Positions 4,080-51,052 of a stretch of DNA of 64,000 bases are shown in pieces. The position numbers were made by a program, and so were the translations under genes. Source of the DNA: Schizochytrium sp. TIO01 (Eukaryota > Sar > Bigyra > Thraustochytrida > Thraustochytriidae); assembly GCA_004764695.1 (NCBI GenBank), contig SMSO01000025.1, positions 3,307,102 through 3,371,101 of the forward strand. Direction: 5' to 3'. How positions within the stretch are numbered: the first letter of the stretch is position 1; every line of letters starts with the position of its first letter. Below the pieces are notes generated by a model. It made no database searches, was not told the origin of the DNA, and was given only the letters and a program-made list of their open reading frames with translations.

Positions 4080-4530
4080 TCAATAATGTTGCTGCTGGCC
4101 ATCCTGCTGCTGTTGCGGCTGCTGGCCATCCTGCTGAGGGGGGGGCGGCATCATTCCTGGCATCTGCTGGCCGTTGCTATAATACCCCATGTGCATCTGG
4201 TTGTAAGGATTGTGAGTAAACATTCCAGGGGCACTGCCATGGTACATCACTTGAGGCTGATAGTATGCCGATATGTACCCTGGCGGCATGTATGGCTGAC
4301 CAGGAGGCATTGCATACCCCTGCATCATTTGTTGCTGGACCATGTGCGGCTGCGGCTGCATATGTTGTTGAGGTTGCGGCGGCTGCTGCTGTTGCTGGAA
4401 CGAGGCTGGCGTGAACTCCTTAGCATTCGCGTTCGGGCGCCACTCCTTAGCTTCCGAGTTCAAGGCTTTGGTTTTAGAAGCAGCCTCCTTGGCAGGCGCA
4501 GCAGACTCTCCCTTGAGATCCTGTTGTTGT

Positions 4531-4571
<41 letters not shown>

Positions 4572-5918
4572 AGACTTCTTCTTCTTGTCGCCACTAGCGG
4601 GGGGGGCCTTGTCCTGGGCCGCCTCAGACTTTTTGTTACTGAGCTTTTCCGAAAACTGTTTAAAACCATCAATATCACGCTGGCGGTCGCTGATGCGCTT
4701 CTCCTCCGCAGTCATGGACTTCTTACCTCCATTGTTCTTGGAGTTCGATTTCTCATTGTTTCTGCCCTTGGAGGAACCGGCGCCACGACCGCCCGAACCA
4801 GCACCGGTTTCGCCAGATGCTTCCTTGGAGGACCCAGCTCCAGCCTCGCCAGACTTACCCTTGGCATTGTCCTTACCCTCAGACTTCTTGTTAGCGGGGG
4901 CAGGAGCAGGTGCAGAAGGCGCGGGCTCATCAGACTTGGCTGGAGTCGCCGCATTTTCGGCAGCCTTTTTATCACCCTCAGCAGAATCAGCAGGAGTTGA
5001 AGAAGATCCACGCACGCGAGCAGCCCAACTCATACCAGGAGGTACACTCTTCGGCGCCGAGCCCTTGGCAGCATCCGAGTCAGAGGGTTTACCGCCAGCA
5101 GCGGCCTCTGCACCAGTAGTTGATGATGCCTTCGAGGAATTGTCGGGAGTATCACGACGGTGAGGAGGTTGATAGGCGCTCTCGTTTCGCGAGACAGACG
5201 CATAGCGAGATTCCTCGTCAAGCTCTTCGCCCTCTTGGGCCTTTTGGTTGCGTTCTTCGAGCACATGAAAATTGCTTGAGGTCTGAGACTCAATGGATCG
5301 AGCCAGGCGGTTGGCACGGCGGCGGTCAGACTCGGAGAACTTGCGCTTGTCAAGCGAGGTAGTGTAGAGGTTCTCGTCGTAAGTAGATTTGACACCAAAC
5401 CTCTCCTCATTCACCTTGAACTGGTCCCAGCTTCCGGCAGGTGCAGAGCCCTCGAGGGAGGCACCCTTTAGAGTCTCGCCTTTCTCACCAGCCACGGGAG
5501 GGCTAGCAAGCCAGGCCGCGGACTGCAATTTACGCTCAGCACCACCGGCACGAGCACCATTACTAATGTCAGTGTCCGTGCGGAAGCTACTAGGCATCTT
5601 GTCAGTGGAAACACCAAGTTTCTTGGCGGCATCTACCATACCACCGGCATCGGCAGCAAAGACACTAGCCACCTCACTCCATGTCAAATTCATGGGCGCG
5701 CCTTCCTTTGTCTCGCCTTTTACGTGAGCATACTTGAGGCTGAGACCCTGGAGTGTCGATCCTTTAGCCTGGGCATCAGTCTTGGCGCCAGTAAGAACAC
5801 CCGTTACCACGGTACCATTCGTCTTGGTCACCTCCACACGTTGGCCTGCGAGAAAAGCCAAAGCAAACGCCACGCGGTCCTTGGCCGACGAGTTTGACTT
5901 GCCACTGTTTCCAGACAT
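4080..5918 (-). CDS. Ataxin-2-like RNA-binding protein
   Basis: A 612-residue protein from the ATG at 5918; an in-frame TTG at 5978 was rejected as start. It shows the ataxin-2 order: an LSm/SM-ATX domain (about residues 14-95, with GQRVEV and TVVTGVLTGA), then an LsmAD segment (about 162-235, with ERFGVKSTYDENLYTT), then a long Ala/Lys/Ser-rich disordered region. A pure glutamine tract follows at about 449-465, then a PAM2-type motif (NANAKEFTP, near 495-503), and a Gln/Pro/Met/Tyr-rich prion-like tail. In this family PAM2 binds the MLLE domain of poly(A)-binding protein, and the protein promotes mRNA stability and stress-granule assembly in the cytoplasm. Those roles are inferred by homology. 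The glutamine tract lies in the C-terminal half rather than near the N-terminus as in human ataxin-2. Confidence 0.9.
4521..4571 (-). repeat. CAG/CAA repeat encoding polyglutamine
   Basis: Seventeen glutamine codons in a row on the minus strand, mostly CAG with a few CAA near the 3' end, inside the ataxin-2-like gene. A length-variable trinucleotide repeat is likely. Confidence 0.95.
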
Positions 5919-15583: not shown

Positions 15584-18046
15584 ATGAAGGACACGAGCAA
15601 AACTGCCATCATCGATGACGTCATTATGAACGATGGCAAGGAAAACATGTGCTTGGGCAATGACCTCACACCAAGTTTGCAGTACTACAAACAAAAGAAG
15701 AAGATCAAAGGAGAGGATTTTGAGTGCCAGGAGTGTGGACTCCAGGCACTCGGCCGCGAATTTGACGTTTTTGGTGTCTTTGACGGACACGGAGGACCTG
15801 ATGCAGCGCAACTCGCCTCCCAAAAATTTTGCTTCACCCTCGTCGATATCCTGCAACGCACGGCTCAAGCGGAAGCTGATGCCGAGGATGGCACCGGTTG
15901 GGAACAGCGGGTCCTGCCTAACGCTTTAGTTAAGACCTTCGAGTCGCTCAATTCGATGTGCAACAAAGAGTTCGAGACTTCGGGAACTACAGCGACCATC
16001 ATGGTTGTCACCCGCATTCCAAGGATAAAAAGCGATGGATGGGCGCTCGTGACCGTCGCTAATGTGGGAGACTCACATGCTTATGCCGAGGTGTCCAACT
16101 CTGTCGTACGACTTTCGGCCGACCACCGTCTCGATAACAATGCAGAAGAATGCGAACGCGTTACCCAAGCTGGTGGAGAAGTTGCTCGATGCTCGGGTCG
16201 CGACGATAGCAAAGCTGACGACCCCTTGCGTCTCTGGCCTGGCGGGCTTATGATGTCTCGTACCATTGGTGACCCAGACGCAAAGCATTCTCTGGCTATC
16301 CCAGAAATCTCTAATATGCTGGTGCGCATGCTTGAGCCTGACGAAGAGACAAGCACGCCGATTCGTATTATTATTGCCTCTGATGGACTCTGGGACGCTG
16401 TCACGCCCAAGCAAACCTTCTCCATTGTGCGGCGTCGTATCCCTCAAGCTGCGTCGCAGACTCTTATACAGGCGGCTGTTCGCAATGCAGGAAAAGATCG
16501 CGACGACATCACTGTGATCTTGGTGGATATTGCCTCTGATGATGCTCACTTTATCCACCCGCAAGACAAATCTTTGAATAATCAGAGTAACCATACCAAT
16601 GGATCTCCGGCAGTGGCATTTTCTAACTCAATACAGCACTATTACACGTGGAATCCTTTAAGTGAGGAATCTGCTCGTGCAGACATTTCTGCTGCAGAGG
16701 CCAAGCTCTTCGAAGAACGCCAGGCTTTCGAAGCCGAGAAAAACGCGGCTATTGAAGAGCGTGAACGCCTTCAAGCCGCGCTGCAAGCAAGTATGGAGGA
16801 TGAGGAAGCGATGGCAGCAAGGCGGGCTGCAGAGGAAGCTGCCGAAGCCGCCGCTCTTGCAGAAGAAGAGGAGTGGGAGCCTGTAGTAAGAAATTCTCGC
16901 CGCAAGGACAGCAGATCGAGTTCGATTGCTGAGGAAGCCACCATGCAAAGTGAACAAGCTTCTGAAGAGGCTGATACAAATTCAGAAACACATGTAGATG
17001 GCCAAGAAAACTCAGCTGGTAATGAGCAAGGAAGACCCTCCTCAAAGAACCAGAAGAGTACAAAGAAACCTTCGCGCAAAGTTTGTTTTACATTCAAGGA
17101 ATCGGGAAGCTGCTCTCGTGGAGATCGATGCAAGTTCCTTCACAGCTCTCCTGGTGAGGATGTGGAATCAACCACGCCCAATGGAGATGGTTTGGTGATT
17201 GATGGAAGTGCAGCAGATGGCGGCCTGCGCCAACAAGCAACCAATCAACAAAAAGTCTGCTTCACATTTCAGCGCTCCGGGTCATGTTCGCGCGGAGATA
17301 GATGCAAGTTTCTTCACGCAGCTGCTGGAAGCGAGCCAACAATGACTACGAGCATTGCTGGCGGTGCTGGTACCCAGACCTCTAAATCGACGAAGACATG
17401 TCATTCATTTGAGCGTAGTGGATCATGTTCTCGGGGAGATCGTTGCAAATTCATGCACGTTGCTGGCGCTAACAACGAAACAGAGTCTTCTGACGAACCT
17501 TCCGAAGAAGAGCAGAAAGAGGGTGGCGTCCCTTCCTATGCTAGTGCCGCTGCCACGGTTCCAGTCGTCATCGGAGAAAGCGTGCCCGAGGAGGAATCTG
17601 TGGGTGATGAAAACATTGCTCTGGATGCATTGAACATGGTGTCTGCTCTCGCTGCAAGCGAAGCTAACAACAACGTAGACAGTAAGCCCTCAAACAATGA
17701 GCGCCAAAGAGACCCCACCAAAACTCGTAGCTCCAAAACTTGCTTTACATTCGAGCGTGACGGTACCTGCCGCTTCGGCGACAAATGTAAGTATACCCAT
17801 GGGTCCCCGGCAGGAGGACCTGGTGCCGATGTTGGTGCACAAAAGGTCGAGGATAAAAAACCTCGTCGTAATGCTAACAACCCGAACAAGTTCAAGCGTC
17901 AGCCTCCCAGCAAAGCTGTGGAGGCTAAAGATGCTCAAGAGGTTGAGCCCAAGCAGTTTGATGGACCGAAGAAGTGCTTTGCATTTCAACGTAAGGGCTC
18001 GTGTAAATTTGGCGAGACCTGCAAGTTCTCTCACGCTACAGCTTGA
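15584..18046 (+). CDS. PP2C phosphatase fused to five CCCH zinc fingers
   Basis: An 820-residue protein from the ATG at 15584. Residues about 35-330 form a PP2C-type Ser/Thr phosphatase. Metal-binding and catalytic motifs are intact: KGED (42-45), FDGHGG (66-71), VGDS, LSADHRL, GGLMMSRTIGD, ASDGLWD (Asp267) and DRDDIT (Asp305, 307, 308). The KGED form and the WPGG motif resemble a plant-type PP2C subfamily. An acidic, Glu/Ala-rich coiled coil follows (about 365-450). Five CCCH fingers of the form C-x8-C-x5-C-x3-H then start at Cys501, Cys559, Cys606, Cys720 and Cys798. Fingers 1-3 are nearly identical (SGSCSRGDRCKF), pointing to internal duplication. Likely role: an Mn/Mg-dependent phosphatase recruited to RNA; this is inference. 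The fusion is open end to end with no intron. Confidence 0.9.
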   Translation: MKDTSKTAIIDDVIMNDGKENMCLGNDLTPSLQYYKQKKKIKGEDFECQECGLQALGREFDVFGVFDGHGGPDAAQLASQKFCFTLVDILQRTAQAEADAEDGTGWEQRVLPNALVKTFESLNSMCNKEFETSGTTATIMVVTRIPRIKSDGWALVTVANVGDSHAYAEVSNSVVRLSADHRLDNNAEECERVTQAGGEVARCSGRDDSKADDPLRLWPGGLMMSRTIGDPDAKHSLAIPEISNMLVRMLEPDEETSTPIRIIIASDGLWDAVTPKQTFSIVRRRIPQAASQTLIQAAVRNAGKDRDDITVILVDIASDDAHFIHPQDKSLNNQSNHTNGSPAVAFSNSIQHYYTWNPLSEESARADISAAEAKLFEERQAFEAEKNAAIEERERLQAALQASMEDEEAMAARRAAEEAAEAAALAEEEEWEPVVRNSRRKDSRSSSIAEEATMQSEQASEEADTNSETHVDGQENSAGNEQGRPSSKNQKSTKKPSRKVCFTFKESGSCSRGDRCKFLHSSPGEDVESTTPNGDGLVIDGSAADGGLRQQATNQQKVCFTFQRSGSCSRGDRCKFLHAAAGSEPTMTTSIAGGAGTQTSKSTKTCHSFERSGSCSRGDRCKFMHVAGANNETESSDEPSEEEQKEGGVPSYASAAATVPVVIGESVPEEESVGDENIALDALNMVSALAASEANNNVDSKPSNNERQRDPTKTRSSKTCFTFERDGTCRFGDKCKYTHGSPAGGPGADVGAQKVEDKKPRRNANNPNKFKRQPPSKAVEAKDAQEVEPKQFDGPKKCFAFQRKGSCKFGETCKFSHATA

Positions 18047-33192: not shown

Positions 33193-36063
33193 TTAGAGTT
33201 TATTCTCGAGAGAACTAGCCGAGATGGCACCATCCTCGGGTGAGGACTTTGAAGGAAGGATCTGGGGCCCAAAACATGCAAGTAATGCGGGCAAAAATGT
33301 GTTGCTCGTGGCCAATGAGAATAAAACCACCTCCAAGAGAAATTTACCGAAAAGTCCCAAATACTGAATTTCACATAATGTCAGAGCAGCCGCAGCAACT
33401 GCTGTTGTGATCGCCCCAGACAGGACACTGACACTAATACGTGTGTATGCAATGCGTGTACGCAACAACCTTGAAGCGATGACAGTACCATTCTCCAGCG
33501 TGATAAAATCGCCTTCCCTTGCGTTATCTGGAGATACTTCAGCTATAAGTTCTGCCTGCTCGGGCTCATACTCCATATAGGCAATCGCATAGTGTAAGGT
33601 GAAGTCAAAAGATAAACCCACCAAGGCAGTGATGCTTATTGCCTCCATGAAGCCGATTGATCCAATAGACAATTGCATCGTACCTAAGACGAGAGCCGCA
33701 ACAAGAAGAATATTGCATGTTGCTAGTAGGCTGATGAGGATGTTGCGAGTCATGACTAAGAGACATACGAAACCAAAACCAACTCCAGCAGCAAGACCTG
33801 TGATTGCCGTACGAACGAGGGTTTCTTGCATGGTCAGAACAACAAAGTCATCAGAAACTACGAGTGCAGTACCAATTGATTCTGGGCCATTCGAAAATCG
33901 AGATGTAAGGTCTGACGCCAGAGAGCGAAAGGCACTCAACTTTGTATCTAATGCTGCTGATGTCGGTGCTGAAAGAACTACATCGATCATCATAAATTTG
34001 ATTGGATTCGGCACCACCCCGCTTGAAGCAACGCCGTACATTGCACTTGAGTAATCAGATGCATCGTCATCTGTGTCATACCACTCTTCCAAAAAGTTTC
34101 GAGCGTCGGTGGAGTCGTTCACGGGAAAGGATTTATTTTGAGCTTCTAGCCAGGAATCAAAAGTCTGAATCCAGCATTCAACGCTCGCTTCTCCTGATGT
34201 AGATTCCCGAATAAAATCTGGTCGTGGTGTACTACTCAATCCACTGTATTCGTCACAAAGTGCCAGAAGTGCTTCCTGTGCGTTGGCTTCCAAAGGATCA
34301 AAACCTGTGCTATAGGAGAGTGTGCCATAGTCCAATGGGTCAAATGGTGAAGTTCCAGATCGATCGATTAGCTCAATTCCAAAAACAATCGGAGCAGTGT
34401 AGTATGCTCCGCTGGAGAAAATAAAGTCCTCTGATTTAAGATTGTTGACAATAGTCACTGGGTTGCTGTCATCAAATATGTCTTCAATTCGTTTCGTGCC
34501 CGGTGTGAATCGTGATGCACAGTAGGCAAATGACCCAGCAAGGGCAATTCCAATAGGTATAATAATCCAACGAATTCGAACAATTGTGGGAATGTAATAA
34601 TTTCGAAAGAAGCGTGAGACTCTTCCAAGCTTGGGAGCAGAAGAAGTTGCCACTGTAGCGCTATTGGTTTTATCTCTATCTGACACAGCAAATGGCCAGC
34701 ACCAGCATAGACAGAGACAGGGCTTGTAAGGCTTCACAAAACGATCATGTACAACAATGAGACATGGGAAAATAGAAACCACCATCAGAAAGTTGATAAA
34801 GATCAGCACACCAGCGAAGACACCGAAAACCCGAATATTGATAATTTGCGTTATTGCAGTAACCAAAAAGGCTACAAATGTTGTGAGGCTTGTTACCAGC
34901 ATAGCCCCAGCAGCTTTTTTAAAACTCCACACCATGCGATTGACCATTAGTTCCTTTTGTTCAGTCTCACTTAAGTCAGATGCTAAATTTTTTGCGAATA
35001 TTACTGCGCTTTGCTGGAAAGCATCCCAGAAAATAAAAATATCATCTGTGCCAATACCCAACACCAGAAAAATCGCCAACACTTGCAGTGTACCGAAGTG
35101 ATTAATTGTAAAAATAAAGCGATAAACGAAAAAGGAGGTTGGAAAGGAAAGCAGAATTTGAAGAAGGCCTGAAACACCCAGGAAGACAGATCGTGTGTGA
35201 AAACAAAGCATGACAACAACTACTGCAATAGCGGCACCTGCATAAGCACTGTCTGTAGCCAGCGTACGAAATGCAAAAAAGCTTGTAATATCAGTGAAGT
35301 CGAAATACATAGTTAAGTTGTTGTTGTTTTTTCGCTCTGGGAGAACTGTTTCGATCACAACATCTTCAATGGTGGAAGTAATTGTATCTTCTTGGTCACT
35401 CTCATGATCTTCAACACTTGAGTACCCAGCCAGCGGCAAGCCACAGCGCACCCGTGAGCGAAGCATTGGGAGAACTAAAGAGTCAGTCGAGTTTGCGTCA
35501 ATATCGAAATCTTTGCTAACGAAAAAACTTGCGGTGTCAACATGGTTAAGGAGTGCCTGTGCGAAGACATCTCGATCATAATCCTCGATGTTTTCAGGGA
35601 GATAAGTTGTAGCAGAGTATACTTCTTGACAGGAACCTGTTGTTGCATTCAAGAGGCAAATTTCCTGGATTTCTGAGAGTGCAAGAATGCTTTGTTCAAG
35701 GTCTCGAATGTAGTACAAATCTTGAGGGAAGTTTAAAAAGTCATACTCGGTGCGTTCTGACACCCAATACAAATCGAGTGACGAGTCTGCCTGAACAGTT
35801 CTTTCAGCAGCACCAGTGTTGTTTGTATTTGCTGCTTCAACTTCGGCGGCAGCTACTGTATAGGCATCGTATGCTCTGGCACTGTAGCTGTTGCGTACTG
35901 ACCAACCTGCAAGGTCGTTTAGCTCAAAGTCAGTCATGCCGACAGCGGAGAAAACAACGGGTACAGCCAGCGCGCAAACGAGGAGTGCGCGCGGATGCTC
36001 TACCACAGCCCCCATGATCCACCGCGTTGAGCATGTTCTTCTGCATGATGATAGTCGTCCCAT
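33193..36063 (-). CDS. Dispatched/Patched-like RND-family membrane protein, copy 1
   Basis: A 956-residue protein from the ATG at 36063; the longer frame starts at GTG. Topology fits the eukaryotic RND superfamily (Patched, Dispatched, NPC1): one TM near the N-terminus, a large luminal loop with many N-glycosylation sequons, a five-TM sterol-sensing-type block, a cytosolic Cys/Trp-rich linker (CLCLCWCWPF), a TM, a second luminal loop, and five more TMs. The TM4 relay motif GIGTDDIF has Asp340 and Asp341 intact. The TM10 counterpart is GLSFDFTLHYA. In this family these residues couple cation flux to lipid or hydrophobic-ligand movement. Substrate unknown. It has a 948-residue paralogue just upstream on the same strand. 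Confidence 0.9.
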   Translation of the reverse strand: MGRLSSCRRTCSTRWIMGAVVEHPRALLVCALAVPVVFSAVGMTDFELNDLAGWSVRNSYSARAYDAYTVAAAEVEAANTNNTGAAERTVQADSSLDLYWVSERTEYDFLNFPQDLYYIRDLEQSILALSEIQEICLLNATTGSCQEVYSATTYLPENIEDYDRDVFAQALLNHVDTASFFVSKDFDIDANSTDSLVLPMLRSRVRCGLPLAGYSSVEDHESDQEDTITSTIEDVVIETVLPERKNNNNLTMYFDFTDITSFFAFRTLATDSAYAGAAIAVVVVMLCFHTRSVFLGVSGLLQILLSFPTSFFVYRFIFTINHFGTLQVLAIFLVLGIGTDDIFIFWDAFQQSAVIFAKNLASDLSETEQKELMVNRMVWSFKKAAGAMLVTSLTTFVAFLVTAITQIINIRVFGVFAGVLIFINFLMVVSIFPCLIVVHDRFVKPYKPCLCLCWCWPFAVSDRDKTNSATVATSSAPKLGRVSRFFRNYYIPTIVRIRWIIIPIGIALAGSFAYCASRFTPGTKRIEDIFDDSNPVTIVNNLKSEDFIFSSGAYYTAPIVFGIELIDRSGTSPFDPLDYGTLSYSTGFDPLEANAQEALLALCDEYSGLSSTPRPDFIRESTSGEASVECWIQTFDSWLEAQNKSFPVNDSTDARNFLEEWYDTDDDASDYSSAMYGVASSGVVPNPIKFMMIDVVLSAPTSAALDTKLSAFRSLASDLTSRFSNGPESIGTALVVSDDFVVLTMQETLVRTAITGLAAGVGFGFVCLLVMTRNILISLLATCNILLVAALVLGTMQLSIGSIGFMEAISITALVGLSFDFTLHYAIAYMEYEPEQAELIAEVSPDNAREGDFITLENGTVIASRLLRTRIAYTRISVSVLSGAITTAVAAAALTLCEIQYLGLFGKFLLEVVLFSLATSNTFLPALLACFGPQILPSKSSPEDGAISASSLENKL

Positions 36064-36754: not shown

Positions 36755-39601
36755 TTAAGGGTTCAACACTACAATCTTGTTTTGACCATGATCCCGAGGA
36801 GGTCGCTGAGGTCCAAAACATGCGAGAAGTGCTGGGAAAAAGGTGTTAGATGTGGCCAAAGAGAACAAAACAACCTCGAGAAGGAATTTTCCAAATTCTG
36901 CTAGATACAAGATTTCGCATAGAGTTAATGCAATCGCAGCGACAGTCGTTGCAATTGCGCCGGATAGAACACTGACACTAATTCGAGTAAATGCAACACG
37001 AGTTCGAAGCCTGCGAGAAGCTACTGGGGTACCGTCCTCAAGCATGTAGAAATCTCCGGGCATGCAATTTTCGGGGGTAACCTCGGCGATAAGTTTTGCT
37101 TGCTCGGGCTTGTACTCTACATACGCAATCGCATAATGTAGAGTGAAATCAAATGCCAAACCCACAAGAGCAGTGATGCAAATAGCTTCCATGAAACCAA
37201 TTGAACCAATGGAGAGCTGCATAGTACCAAGCACCAAAGCACTGAGCAAGAGAATGTTGACTGTGGCGAGAACGCTTACAAGAATATTTCTTGTCATGAT
37301 CAACAGACATGCAAATCCGAATGCAACTCCGGAAGCAAGACCTATGATTGCTGTTTTCACCAAAGATCGCTGCATAACAAGACCGCTGTAGTCCGCTGAA
37401 ACAACAAGAGGGGTTCCAACTGACTCTGGGCCATTTGCAAATCTAGATGATAGATCACTTGCAAGATCCTCAAAGGCACCCAGCTTAGCATCTAGATTTG
37501 CAGTAGTAAGGACTGAGAGGGTCACCTCCATCACCATATACTTGATAGGATCTGGCACAATTGAAGAAGATGAGGTACCATAGAACTCCCCAATATAATC
37601 TTCAGCATTCGCATCATCAAGATACCACATGTTCAGCAGCTCGCGAGTGTATGAAGTGTTTGAAACTGGAAATAATTCCCCATTGTCATCAAGCCAGTTC
37701 TCAAAAGCTGAAACCCAGCATGTCACACTCGACTCAGTTGAAGAGGACTCTCGAACATAGCTCGGGCGCACCGAAGAATTGCTACTGCTGAACTCAGTAC
37801 ACATTTCATAAAGAGCTTCTTGAGCATCTGATTGTAAAGGAGCGAAACCGGCGTCATAGGTGATGGTTCCATAGTCTGAAGGATCAAATGCTGAGGTACC
37901 AGATCGGTCAATTAAACCGAATCCGAAAGTAACCATTGTGGTGTAGTATGCTGATGAAGAGAGAGTGAACTCTGAGTACATAAGGGATGTCACTATGGTC
38001 ACAGGGTGACTGCTATCGAAAATGTCGCCAATGCTTCTAGTGCCAGGCTTGAATCGAGAGCTCAAGCCAGCAAAAACACCCATGAGGACAAAGCCTAGAA
38101 CGATCAATACCCATCGAAGTTTCATTAGAGCTGGGATATATTTGTCACGGAAGAATCGTGAGACACGACCCAATTCACCAGGGCTCAGATCGTCCTTTGA
38201 TACCTTGTTTTGACAGCACGGAAACAAGCGCGATGCGCAGGTCAGGGGTTGAATATATTTGACATACAGAACCACGAGGGGGGGCAGTAGACAGATAACG
38301 AGGACAAAGTTCACAAGCATCAATAATGCTGCAAAAACGCCGAAACAACGAATGTTGATAATCTGCGTAACAGCCGTAATAAAAAATGCCATAAATGTAG
38401 TCAGACTCGTTACCAACATGGCACCGGCAGCGTTGTTGAAGCTCCATGTAAGGCGAATCTGGAGGATCTCGTTTTGACTATCAACATCAGGCTCGGCAGA
38501 GAGAATCTGATCAGCAAAAATCACCGCACTTTGCTGAAAAGCGTCCCAAAATATGAAAACATTATCTGCACCAATTCCAAACAGGACGAAGATGGCTAAA
38601 ACTTGCAAGGTTCCAAAGTGGTGGATCTGGAAAACATAATAGTAGATGAAATAAGCAGTCGGGAAAGCAAGAATGACTTGCAGCATGCTCGTAATTCCAA
38701 GAAACAGAGACCTTGTGTGTAGACAGAGCATTAATAACACAAATAAAATTGCCAACCCAGCAAATGCGGCATCAGTCATCAATGTCTGCTCTGCGAAGAA
38801 CTCTGTGATGTCTGCAAAGTAAACATAGAGCGTGATGTTCTTGTTTTCCTCACGAGTATCCATGATATCATCTACTACAACATCTTCCATGACACTCACA
38901 ATCTTATCGTTCTGCTCAGTGGTATCAGACTGTGCAGATGAATATCCCGCAAGTGGTAGGCCAAAGAATATTCTAGAACGAAGCATAGGAAGCTGAAGCC
39001 CCTCCGTGGAGTTTGCATCAATATCGAATTCTTTACTGATGAAAAAGCTAGACGTGTCAGGATTGTCTAAGAGTGCCTGAGCAAAGACATCCTTATCATA
39101 ATCATCAATACTCTCAGGTAGATAAGCTGTTGCAGAGTGCACAGGTTGACACTCTCCTGTAGTTGAGTTGAGCAAGCAGATGCTCTGCATTTTGGGTTTT
39201 GCAAGAATCGTATTTTCATAGTTGCGAATGTAATACAGATCCTCTGGATAGTCCAGCAGATTATACGCTTCACGTTGGGACACCCAATAGAAGTCGAGCG
39301 TTTGGTCAGATTCTACAGACCTTTCACTGGCCCCAGTTGTATTGGTGTTGGCTTCTTCAACATCCTCAGATGCTACCACATAAGCATCATATGCACGTGC
39401 GCTGTAACTATTGCGTACAGACCATCCATCGCTGTCTTGAAACTCAAGCTTAGTTATGCCAACACAAGTAAAAATGATTGGCACAACCAGCATTCCAAGC
39501 AGGACCAGACAGGGTCGCTTGATGATTGTCCCCATACAACTATTCGTGGAACATCCGGCGAGACATGATGGCTTCTTCAAAGCAGGCAAACTAATTGCCA
39601 T
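36755..39601 (-). CDS. Dispatched/Patched-like RND-family membrane protein, copy 2
   Basis: A 948-residue protein from the ATG at 39601, with the same architecture as copy 1 and colinear similarity throughout, for example SDGWSVRNSYSARAYDAY against AGWSVRNSYSARAYDAY. The two luminal loops are the most diverged parts. In TM4 the relay motif reads GIGADNVF: Asp346 is kept but the second aspartate is Asn347. TM10 keeps GLAFDFTLHYA. Loss of one relay aspartate could change or abolish cation coupling; that is inference. The frame is intact end to end. It is clearly a tandem duplicate with functional divergence rather than a dead copy. Confidence 0.9.
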   Translation of the reverse strand: MAISLPALKKPSCLAGCSTNSCMGTIIKRPCLVLLGMLVVPIIFTCVGITKLEFQDSDGWSVRNSYSARAYDAYVVASEDVEEANTNTTGASERSVESDQTLDFYWVSQREAYNLLDYPEDLYYIRNYENTILAKPKMQSICLLNSTTGECQPVHSATAYLPESIDDYDKDVFAQALLDNPDTSSFFISKEFDIDANSTEGLQLPMLRSRIFFGLPLAGYSSAQSDTTEQNDKIVSVMEDVVVDDIMDTREENKNITLYVYFADITEFFAEQTLMTDAAFAGLAILFVLLMLCLHTRSLFLGITSMLQVILAFPTAYFIYYYVFQIHHFGTLQVLAIFVLFGIGADNVFIFWDAFQQSAVIFADQILSAEPDVDSQNEILQIRLTWSFNNAAGAMLVTSLTTFMAFFITAVTQIINIRCFGVFAALLMLVNFVLVICLLPPLVVLYVKYIQPLTCASRLFPCCQNKVSKDDLSPGELGRVSRFFRDKYIPALMKLRWVLIVLGFVLMGVFAGLSSRFKPGTRSIGDIFDSSHPVTIVTSLMYSEFTLSSSAYYTTMVTFGFGLIDRSGTSAFDPSDYGTITYDAGFAPLQSDAQEALYEMCTEFSSSNSSVRPSYVRESSSTESSVTCWVSAFENWLDDNGELFPVSNTSYTRELLNMWYLDDANAEDYIGEFYGTSSSSIVPDPIKYMVMEVTLSVLTTANLDAKLGAFEDLASDLSSRFANGPESVGTPLVVSADYSGLVMQRSLVKTAIIGLASGVAFGFACLLIMTRNILVSVLATVNILLLSALVLGTMQLSIGSIGFMEAICITALVGLAFDFTLHYAIAYVEYKPEQAKLIAEVTPENCMPGDFYMLEDGTPVASRRLRTRVAFTRISVSVLSGAIATTVAAIALTLCEILYLAEFGKFLLEVVLFSLATSNTFFPALLACFGPQRPPRDHGQNKIVVLNP

Positions 39602-46866: not shown

Positions 46867-48525
46867 ATGGAGACTACACGAAAGCGCGTTGCTGTCATTG
46901 GTGCCGGAATGTGTGGTATGAAGGCACTGAAGGAAATGGTCGCTGCTGGCTTCGACACCACTTGCTTCGAGTTGAGTGAAGATATTGGTGGGATCTGGCG
47001 CTTCACCGAAGAGGAATCGCTCTCGTCCGTCTATCGTTCGACACGTATCAACACCCTTCGCGCAGGAAACTCGTTTGCCGACTTTCCGATTCCTGAAAGC
47101 TACCCCCTTGCCATGGACCACAATGATGTCATGCGCTATTTCCGAGCCTACGTGAATCAGTTTGACCTTCTGCAGTACATCAAGTTCAATACGAAGGTCT
47201 TGACAATCGAACCTTTCAAAGCTCGTCAAGGAAACAAGGACTGGTCGTGGCGAATTGTTACGGAGCCTACGGATGGCGAGGGTGAACCAACTGAGACTAT
47301 CTTTGATGGTGTGGTTGTTTGCTCTGGGCATCACTCCAAGCCGCACAAGTTCCCTTTCAAGGGTCTCGAGACATTCCCTGGTATCCAGATGCACTCCCAC
47401 TCTTACAAGGACAATTCGAAGTTTGTTGGTAAACGCTGTGTCGTTGTTGGCATTGGTAACTCTGGTTCTGATGTAGTGACTGAGATCGCCAAGGTTGCTT
47501 CTAGGACCGTCCTGGTTGCTCGACGTGGTTCATGGATCATCCCTAACCCCTTCATTGATCCCCAGTCTGATGTCGTATCGCGTTTTGACCAAAACATCCT
47601 CGGCCGTATTTCTCAACGTGCCCAGGCTCACCTTGTTGAATCGCAGCGTCAGGAAGCCTACAACAAGCTTAAGAAGGCAAACCTCAACCCAACTTATGGG
47701 TTTAATGAGGCGCACCCCACTCTAACGAATAATAGCCCGGATAACAACTTTTATGAGCAGCTTGATGCCGGACGAATTGAAGGACGTCGTGGCATCGATC
47801 GTTTTGAAGGCTCTAATGTTTACTTCACGGACGGTACGTCCATGGAAGCTGACGCTGTGGTATTCTGCACTGGCTACAAACTCACGTACCCATTTCTCAG
47901 TAGCCAGATTCTTGAGACCAACGATGCCAATGAAATTGAGCTCTACAAGTACATGTTCCCTGTTGGTGACAAACAGGTCGATAACATTGCCTTCATCGGT
48001 GTTGTGCAGCCTGTTGGCCCTATGGCTATGATTGCTGATGTGCAGACCCGTGTTGTCGCCCAATACCTCAAGGGTAAGGTTCCCCTTCCTAGCCGTGAAG
48101 TCATGAAAACAGACATCCGCCAAAAGCGCGAATTCAACTTGAACTGGTATTACCGTGCACCTCGTCACACCATTCAGGTGTCGATGCGTCCTTACCTCGA
48201 TGAAATTGGTGAGATGATTGGCTGCACCCCTACGTTTTTCCGTTTACTTTTTAAAGCCCCGTGGCTCTTGTATGCCGCATATCGCACGCCCACCATGGGT
48301 GCCCACTACCGTCTGGTAGGCTATGGTGCAAATCAAAATCTTGCGACTTATGATCTTGCGAAGGAGCGCCAGGCTTGCTTCAGCCACATGCGCAACCGTA
48401 AAACCTTGCTTGGCTTCATCCTGTACTACATCAAGCTTTATGGCATGATTTTCCCTATGGCTGTCTTTTACCAGCTCAAGTCCCTTCTTACTACTGGCAA
48501 AACCTTCTTCTTTCTCTGGGATTAA
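46867..48525 (+). CDS. Flavin-containing monooxygenase (FMO), copy 1
   Basis: A 552-residue protein. The ATG at 46867 sits in GCCACCATGG, a full Kozak consensus. The FAD-binding GAGMCG is at residues 12-17, followed by the FELSEDIGGIWRF strand and STRINTL. The FMO-identifying sequence FPGIQMHSHSYKD starts at residue 170, the NADPH-binding GIGNSGSD at 195, and the CTGY motif at 334. These are all the signatures of class B FMOs, which use NADPH and O2 to oxygenate soft nucleophiles (N or S). A hydrophobic C-terminal stretch (about residues 510-540) may anchor it to the ER. It has a tandem paralogue 823 bp downstream on the same strand. Confidence 0.95.
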   Translation: METTRKRVAVIGAGMCGMKALKEMVAAGFDTTCFELSEDIGGIWRFTEEESLSSVYRSTRINTLRAGNSFADFPIPESYPLAMDHNDVMRYFRAYVNQFDLLQYIKFNTKVLTIEPFKARQGNKDWSWRIVTEPTDGEGEPTETIFDGVVVCSGHHSKPHKFPFKGLETFPGIQMHSHSYKDNSKFVGKRCVVVGIGNSGSDVVTEIAKVASRTVLVARRGSWIIPNPFIDPQSDVVSRFDQNILGRISQRAQAHLVESQRQEAYNKLKKANLNPTYGFNEAHPTLTNNSPDNNFYEQLDAGRIEGRRGIDRFEGSNVYFTDGTSMEADAVVFCTGYKLTYPFLSSQILETNDANEIELYKYMFPVGDKQVDNIAFIGVVQPVGPMAMIADVQTRVVAQYLKGKVPLPSREVMKTDIRQKREFNLNWYYRAPRHTIQVSMRPYLDEIGEMIGCTPTFFRLLFKAPWLLYAAYRTPTMGAHYRLVGYGANQNLATYDLAKERQACFSHMRNRKTLLGFILYYIKLYGMIFPMAVFYQLKSLLTTGKTFFFLWD

Positions 48526-49348: not shown

Positions 49349-51052
49349 ATGCAACGCGCTACTCTAGACATGATTTCAAATGCGTCAAAGAAGAAACATG
49401 TTGCTGTACTAGGTGCAGGTATGTGCGGCTTGAAGACAATCAAAGAACTCCTCGATGCAAACATAGAGGTGACTGCATTTGAGCTCAGCGAAGACATAGG
49501 CGGCATATGGCGGTTCACGGAAAATGAGGATGAGTCCATTTCTTCAAGTGTGTACCGCTCCACCCGGATCAATACGCTTCGCATTGGCAACTCGTTTACA
49601 GACTTTCCCATCCCTGAAGGCGATTTTCCAGTTTCGATGACGCATTATGATATGATGCGTTACTTTCGAGCCTATGCAGAGGAGTTTGGCCTGTGCAAGC
49701 ACATCAAGTTTAATACCAAGGTGCTTCGTATTGAGCCCGGGAAGGCTCGCAACAAGAATGGATCCACATCTTCAGATTGGACCTGGAAGGTAGAAACTGA
49801 AAGCAAAGGAGGAGAGGTCACCGAATCAACGTTTGATGGAGTGGTGATTTGCTCTGGTCATCATTCGATTCCCCGAAAGGTCCAATTTGATGGCTTGGAT
49901 TCCTTTCCAGGGCTACTCATGCACTCTCACACCTACAAAGACAACTCTAAGTTTGTAGGCAAACGCTGCGTAGTTGTTGGTATCGGCAACAGTGGTTCTG
50001 ATATAGCTACCGAGATTAGCAAAGTTGCCAAAGAGACTATTCTTGTAGCCAGAAACGGTGTCTGGGTTGTGAAAAATCCTCTGTTTGATAAAGATGCCGA
50101 GGTTGTTACTCGACTTGATCAGAACATTTTAGGTCGCCTTCCTCAGGATGTTAGCGCCCGCATGGCCGAACATGACCATGCCGAGACTCGCGCATTGCTT
50201 GAAAAGGCTGGACTTGGCCCTACCTATGCTTTCAACCAAGGTCATCCAACACTGACAGGAAACTCCCCAGAGAACAACCTGTTGAAGCAAGTGGAGGAAG
50301 GAAAGATCCACGGTCGGCGAGGCATTGACCACTTTGAAGGGTCAACTGTGCATTTTACTGATGGCACGACTTTTGAAGCTGATGCTGTTATTCAGTGTAC
50401 GGGATACAAGCTTGCTTATCCTTATCTTGACCCTGAGGTCTTTCAAGTTCAAGGAGACAATGAGGTGGAGCTTTACAAGTACATGTTTCCACTTGGTCAC
50501 AAGAAGGTCGATAACATTGCCTTTGTGGGTGTAGTGCAACAGCTTGGTGCATTAGCTATGGTTGCGGACGTGCAGTCAAGAATTGTAGCCAAGTATATGG
50601 CCGGCGACTTGCAGCTTCCTAGCCGCCAACTTATGAAGGAAGATATTGTAGCCAAACGTAAATTCAATGCAGATTGGTATTACTCGGCACCGCGTCACAC
50701 AATCCAGGTCTCTCTGCGTCCTTACCTAGATGAGATTGGCGAAATGATTGATGCAACACCTACGTTAACGCGAATTCTATCCCAAAACCCAAGCTTGCTC
50801 TGGCTGGTATACTCCACACCAACATGCGGCAGCCACTACCGTTTGTTTGGATATGGCGCTAAGCCTGAGCTAGCAAAGTACAATATGAACAAGGAATACC
50901 AGCATTGCTTTTCGCATATGAAGAACCGTACTCTTCTTGGGGGGGTGAGATACTACGCTAACCTTTTTGGAGTTAAACTCCCGATGGCAGCTTACTACCA
51001 AGCCAAATCATTTTTAACGACTGGTAAGACGTTTTTCTTTTGTTGGGAGTAA
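49349..51052 (+). CDS. Flavin-containing monooxygenase (FMO), copy 2
   Basis: A 567-residue protein from the ATG at 49349; a second ATG at 49370 is an alternative start that aligns better with copy 1. All FMO signatures are present: GAGMCG, FELSEDIGGIWRF, the HSHTYKDNSKF part of the FMO sequence, GIGNSGSD, and CTGY. It is colinear with copy 1 along its whole length and ends with the same LTTGKTFFF motif. The frame is intact, so both copies are probably functional. They differ most around residues 225-290 and at the C-terminus, where substrate access could differ. Confidence 0.95.
   Translation: MQRATLDMISNASKKKHVAVLGAGMCGLKTIKELLDANIEVTAFELSEDIGGIWRFTENEDESISSSVYRSTRINTLRIGNSFTDFPIPEGDFPVSMTHYDMMRYFRAYAEEFGLCKHIKFNTKVLRIEPGKARNKNGSTSSDWTWKVETESKGGEVTESTFDGVVICSGHHSIPRKVQFDGLDSFPGLLMHSHTYKDNSKFVGKRCVVVGIGNSGSDIATEISKVAKETILVARNGVWVVKNPLFDKDAEVVTRLDQNILGRLPQDVSARMAEHDHAETRALLEKAGLGPTYAFNQGHPTLTGNSPENNLLKQVEEGKIHGRRGIDHFEGSTVHFTDGTTFEADAVIQCTGYKLAYPYLDPEVFQVQGDNEVELYKYMFPLGHKKVDNIAFVGVVQQLGALAMVADVQSRIVAKYMAGDLQLPSRQLMKEDIVAKRKFNADWYYSAPRHTIQVSLRPYLDEIGEMIDATPTLTRILSQNPSLLWLVYSTPTCGSHYRLFGYGAKPELAKYNMNKEYQHCFSHMKNRTLLGGVRYYANLFGVKLPMAAYYQAKSFLTTGKTFFFCWE

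Follow-up and report, generated by a model that had tools for sequence, protein, structure and literature searches.

Does a single gene of Schizochytrium sp. TIO01 encode both a PP2C phosphatase and an array of CCCH zinc fingers, and if so, where might the fingers take the enzyme? Members of the PP2C family are generally portrayed as single-chain enzymes, and therefore the domains fused to them are a natural place to seek how they find their substrates. The locus lies in a window of 64,000 nucleotides, the whole stretch of DNA that was analyzed. The original prediction read it as one intact frame joining a complete metal-dependent phosphatase domain to a coiled coil and five CCCH fingers, and proposed targeting to RNA or RNA-protein complexes. 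Indeed, positions 15584 to 18046 of the plus strand translate into 820 codons with no internal stops, and along the 820-aa chain a PP2C/PPM domain is followed by an Ala/Glu-rich helix, a linker and five CCCH fingers. Pfam matched PP2C (PF00481) to residues 56 to 305 (E 1.9e-25) and zf-CCCH (PF00642) to five stretches of the same chain (E 8.4e-31; 105.7 bits versus a curated cut-off of 20.5). Both matches are far beyond chance.

The fusion would be artificial if the two halves belonged to two genes, or if alternative transcript processing kept PP2C and fingers from forming one cellular protein. Codon preference was scored in 60-codon blocks using 20 other long ORFs of the same genome as the training set. 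The in-frame score was above zero in all blocks from 15704 to 18043, the linker between PP2C and fingers included, and was below zero before the ORF start and immediately past the stop. One donor-like GTAAGA is present in the linker, at 16886, which would suit a processed transcript; however, no pyrimidine-rich acceptor was found downstream of it within the linker, and neither the open frame nor the coding preference is interrupted there. We regard separate genes or processing as very improbable, and the PP2C domain and fingers are likely encoded on a single transcript, in line with the intact frame first predicted.

The 64-Mb assembly has one copy of the gene, which was its sole full-length match. 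A second genomic copy of the fusion was considered and rejected, as the next-best matches were to the PP2C domain alone or to the fingers alone, and among the matches listed there was no other genomic site combining PP2C with CCCH. A search of viral contigs for relatives of the whole protein revealed none.

The catalytic domain, delimited by the PF00481 match, a structural model and a fold match to ABI1, covers residues 24 to 320 approximately (15653 to 16543, plus strand). The published PP2C family pattern is ED - DGH[AG] - GD - GD - DG - DN (PMC2175518), and the protein follows it with E44-D45, D67-G-H-G, G162-D163, G229-D230, D267-G268 and D307-D308, the last of these (16502 to 16507, the final metal motif) having DD for DN. 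The Pfam alignment begins only at profile position 30, which raised the suspicion that a first exon carrying motif 1 was missing. This was excluded: motif 1 lies beyond the Pfam match at E44-D45 (15713 to 15718), where G43-E44-D45 aligns opposite the MED or NQD of 16 same-genome paralogues (MED/QED is also found in prokaryotic and viral PP2Cs), its distance of 22 residues to D67 is that of PPM1A-like proteins, and the structural model aligns with PP2Cs from residue 24 onward. In an alignment of 38 prokaryotic and viral PP2Cs, the bacterial and viral sequences being used for structure alignment only, E44 and D45 are nearly invariant and D67, G68, G162, D163, D267, G268 and D271 are invariant. 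The two metal-site motifs D67-G-H-G-G71 (15782 to 15796; invariant or nearly so) and D267-G-L-W-D271 (16382 to 16396) were likewise placed by alignment.

An AlphaFold2 model of residues 1 to 325, built from a 39-sequence alignment, had a pLDDT of 82.1 and a pTM of 0.84. Foldseek and VIA-align matched this model to PP2Cs with Z scores of about 30 to 32, specifically to ABI1 (3jrq_A; Z 32.4, rmsd 2.0 over 254 residues, model range 24 to 317), human PPM1K (Z about 31) and PPM1A (Z 30.4). The plant clade A PP2Cs ABI1, ABI2 and HAB1 were the best matches to the domain in both sequence and fold (27 to 29% identity, Z about 31 to 32); this likeness is one of shared fold and does not imply abscisic acid (ABA) signaling. 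These three plant proteins are not known to carry CCCH fingers. The motif alignments and the fold show that the PP2C domain is complete and that its Asp ligands are kept, as had been proposed.

Such a domain would be expected to have Mn/Mg-dependent Ser/Thr phosphatase activity. Alternatively, it could be inactive or altered in specificity and serve as a phospho-binding scaffold on RNA. Several substitutions fit that view: in the paralogue alignment the Arg that contacts phosphate and precedes motif 1 (R33 of PPM1A) is Lys40, GDSH stands in place of the usual GDSR, and DD replaces DN; in addition, the branch leading to the domain in the tree is very long. However, E44, D45, D67, G68, D163, D230, D267, D271 and D307 are all retained, and the DD ending is shared with two paralogues, L015 and L021. 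The Arg, moreover, is the least conserved core residue of the Phytophthora sojae PPMs, and because just 14 of 29 have it (PMC10925823), it is not a strict criterion of the PP2C/PPM family. Loss or change of activity is thus, in our estimation, quite unlikely. The same tree grouped the domain weakly (80/82) with L011, L015 and L021 on long branches, a grouping that was rejected as a clade placement because it is not reliable.

Past the catalytic domain, a full-length single-sequence fold was poor (pLDDT 38.7) except for the Ala/Glu-rich helix in the linker (residues 361 to 428; 16664 to 16867, plus strand; pLDDT up to about 91). Here, residues 361 to 404 and 407 to 428 were predicted as helical with fair confidence in the absence of an alignment, and the low-confidence linker beyond them is probably disordered. 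The original prediction called this segment a coiled coil. A helix is indeed predicted, but even in the best registers large hydrophobic residues occupy only 25 to 30% of the a and d positions, and with so poor a heptad pattern a coiled coil is not supported; the segment is better described as an Ala/Glu-rich helix. Inside it, the stretch LQAALQASMED (residues 396 to 406; 16769 to 16801, plus strand) agrees with the core pattern of a ubiquitin-interacting motif (UIM), which might favor ubiquitin binding by the helix. The loose form of the pattern, however, also occurred in 5 to 9% of shuffles, the strict form was written after the sequence had been seen, and Pfam reported no UIM in the linker at E values up to 10, a search in which HMMER filters can drop weak short matches. 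Given the shuffles and the Pfam result, we treat the UIM-like stretch as a lead only.

The fingers, five in number as predicted, all have the exact spacing C-x8-C-x5-C-x3-H. They occupy residues 501 to 520 (17084 to 17143), 559 to 578 (17258 to 17317), 606 to 625 (17399 to 17458), 720 to 739 (17741 to 17800) and 798 to 817 (17975 to 18034) on the plus strand, with intervening gaps of 38, 27, 94 and 58 residues. The first three had been thought near-identical and the array a product of recent duplication. Neither description survived comparison of the underlying DNA: fingers 1 to 3 have 16 to 20 of 25 residues in common but just 44 to 52 of 75 bases, and at 8 to 12 of the 16 to 20 shared residues they use different codons, versus 9.9 to 12.7 expected at synonymous saturation. 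Because their synonymous sites are about saturated, recent duplication was excluded; judged by their codons, these fingers are old copies whose similarity has been maintained by selection.

CCCH zinc fingers usually bind RNA. In the tandem zinc finger of tristetraprolin (TTP)/TIS11, two fingers lie 18 residues apart and carry YKTEL-type lead-ins, and two aromatic positions of the TTP family stack on bases. The fingers studied here have the same C-x8-C-x5-C-x3-H spacing and find their best PDB matches in that family, but they number five, are widely and unevenly spaced and are preceded by PSRKV, NQQKV, KSTKT, RSSKT and DGPKK (fingers 1 to 5). Because its spacing and lead-ins are unlike those of the TTP tandem pair, the array is best classed as CCCH and not as TTP/TIS11; the genome has a TTP-like tandem pair of its own at C34:4162592. 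In fingers 4 and 5, both stacking positions are aromatic: a Phe lies two residues past the second Cys, and a further aromatic side chain follows the third. Fingers 1 to 3 have Arg at the first of the two positions.

The Arg in fingers 1 to 3 would be consistent with an array that binds protein or DNA, or is purely structural, in which case an active PP2C would be targeted by means other than RNA and the helix may bind ubiquitin. Set against this, the most similar fingers in the rest of the genome belong to an RRM+2xCCCH protein (L024, G000:C36:3845631-3845876, minus strand), with finger 5 being 67% identical over 30 residues to one of them, and the best PDB matches to the fingers are RNA-binding CCCH proteins, namely the TTP family, CPSF30, the U2AF small subunit and muscleblind. 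RNA targeting is argued mainly from these two observations, and we consider a non-RNA array unlikely. Thus, the family to which the fingers belong and their RRM-linked relative suggest that they bind RNA, and targeting to RNA or RNA-protein particles, as originally proposed, is still the likeliest reading. The RRM+2xCCCH protein carries an RRM rather than a phosphatase domain; it also has an acidic/basic tail.

There is precedent for PP2Cs in RNA biology. PPM1G (PP2C-gamma) contains an acidic insert and is not known to carry zinc fingers. This PP2C acts on RNA-protein complexes, and its knockdown leaves SMN and Gemin3 of the SMN complex hyperphosphorylated (PMC9981653); the parallel drawn here is functional and not a claim of orthology. 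A second functional parallel comes from Plasmodium, whose PP2C UIS2 removes phosphate from eIF2alpha and uses a noncatalytic N-terminal region to bind this substrate (PMC4712141). Among stramenopiles, the 29 PPMs catalogued in P. sojae include proteins such as PPM1 in which PP2C shares its chain with a distinct targeting module, and the PH domain of PPM1 is dispensable for activity (PMC10925823). The accessories named in that catalogue are kinase, CAP, PH, CBS and FHA domains, and its text makes no mention of CCCH or zinc fingers (PMC10925823). In the open-access literature that we searched, we found no description of a PP2C-CCCH fusion and nothing on thraustochytrid CCCH proteins.

Fusion of PP2C to other modules recurs in this genome, in which 5 of 10 other long PP2C frames have extra domains. 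These accessories are a kinase (L023:1480-3531, minus strand), two cNMP-binding domains plus a protein kinase in one chain with PP2C (L111:2032-5316, plus strand), a PH domain (L114:178-2853, plus strand), ankyrin (L018:1435-3345, minus strand) and CAP-Gly plus a RanBP1-like domain (L015:1453-3276, minus strand; G000:C13:2482482-2483204). The proteins encoded at L111 and L023 thus hold opposing enzyme activities, kinase and phosphatase, in one chain. The CAP-Gly/RanBP1-like/PP2C protein is an unusual single frame of 608 aa, and its domains suggest a microtubule-targeted phosphatase. Because the genome fuses PP2C to several other domains, the PP2C-CCCH protein belongs to a general habit of attaching address labels; it would be one more "PP2C plus address" protein, with a label that apparently directs it to RNA. 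The combination of PP2C and CCCH therefore looks unusual, yet follows a common pattern.

Other features of the window and genome were recorded as separate observations. An Ataxin-2-like protein, of an RNA-granule family, is encoded at 4080 to 5918 on the minus strand, with an LsmAD match and an SM-ATX match, the latter slightly below its cut-off; its gene and the PP2C-CCCH gene are about 10 kb apart, a proximity that may mean nothing. Two adjoining minus-strand frames of about 950 aa each (33193 to 36063 and 36755 to 39601) both contain a sterol-sensing/Patched domain and are probably a tandem duplication, and two adjoining genes on the plus strand (46867 to 48525 and 49349 to 51052) resemble flavin-binding monooxygenases. 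Elsewhere, a single 2172-aa frame (G000:C4:611495-614707, plus strand) contains ten tandem acyl-carrier domains and resembles a polyunsaturated fatty acid synthase of the thraustochytrid type; this frame points to a thraustochytrid as the probable source of the DNA, in agreement with the stramenopiles named in the original prediction.

Several lines of evidence count toward an RNA-targeted phosphatase: the open frame with its continuous coding signal, the Pfam domains, the complete motifs and fold, the RRM-linked fingers and RNA-binding PDB matches, the other targeted PP2Cs of the genome, and the examples of PPM1G and UIS2. Lys40 counts against an active enzyme of this kind, and the missing stacking aromatic of fingers 1 to 3, together with the absence of the TTP lead-in from every finger, counts against RNA targeting. 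On balance, we think it probable that the product of the gene is an active PP2C whose destination is RNA or RNA-protein particles, its activity, RNA binding and substrates being inferred. In the mechanism that we propose, an Mn/Mg-dependent Ser/Thr phosphatase would be carried to RNA or RNPs by a flexible C-terminal array, whose five fingers, spaced 27 to 94 residues apart, could bind single-stranded RNA several at once, and the helix and linker would give the catalytic domain the reach to dephosphorylate sites on proteins associated with that RNA. A bolder proposal, which we consider doubtful, is that the protein represents an undescribed class of RNA-guided phosphatases conserved in thraustochytrids or the wider stramenopiles, with the CCCH array reading specific mRNAs, the PP2C domain resetting the phosphorylation of bound proteins and the helix possibly sensing ubiquitin. 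If a phosphatase does have a built-in RNA-binding array, dephosphorylation, which is otherwise usually tied to particular RNAs or RNPs through partner proteins, would be tied to particular transcripts or RNPs in cis.
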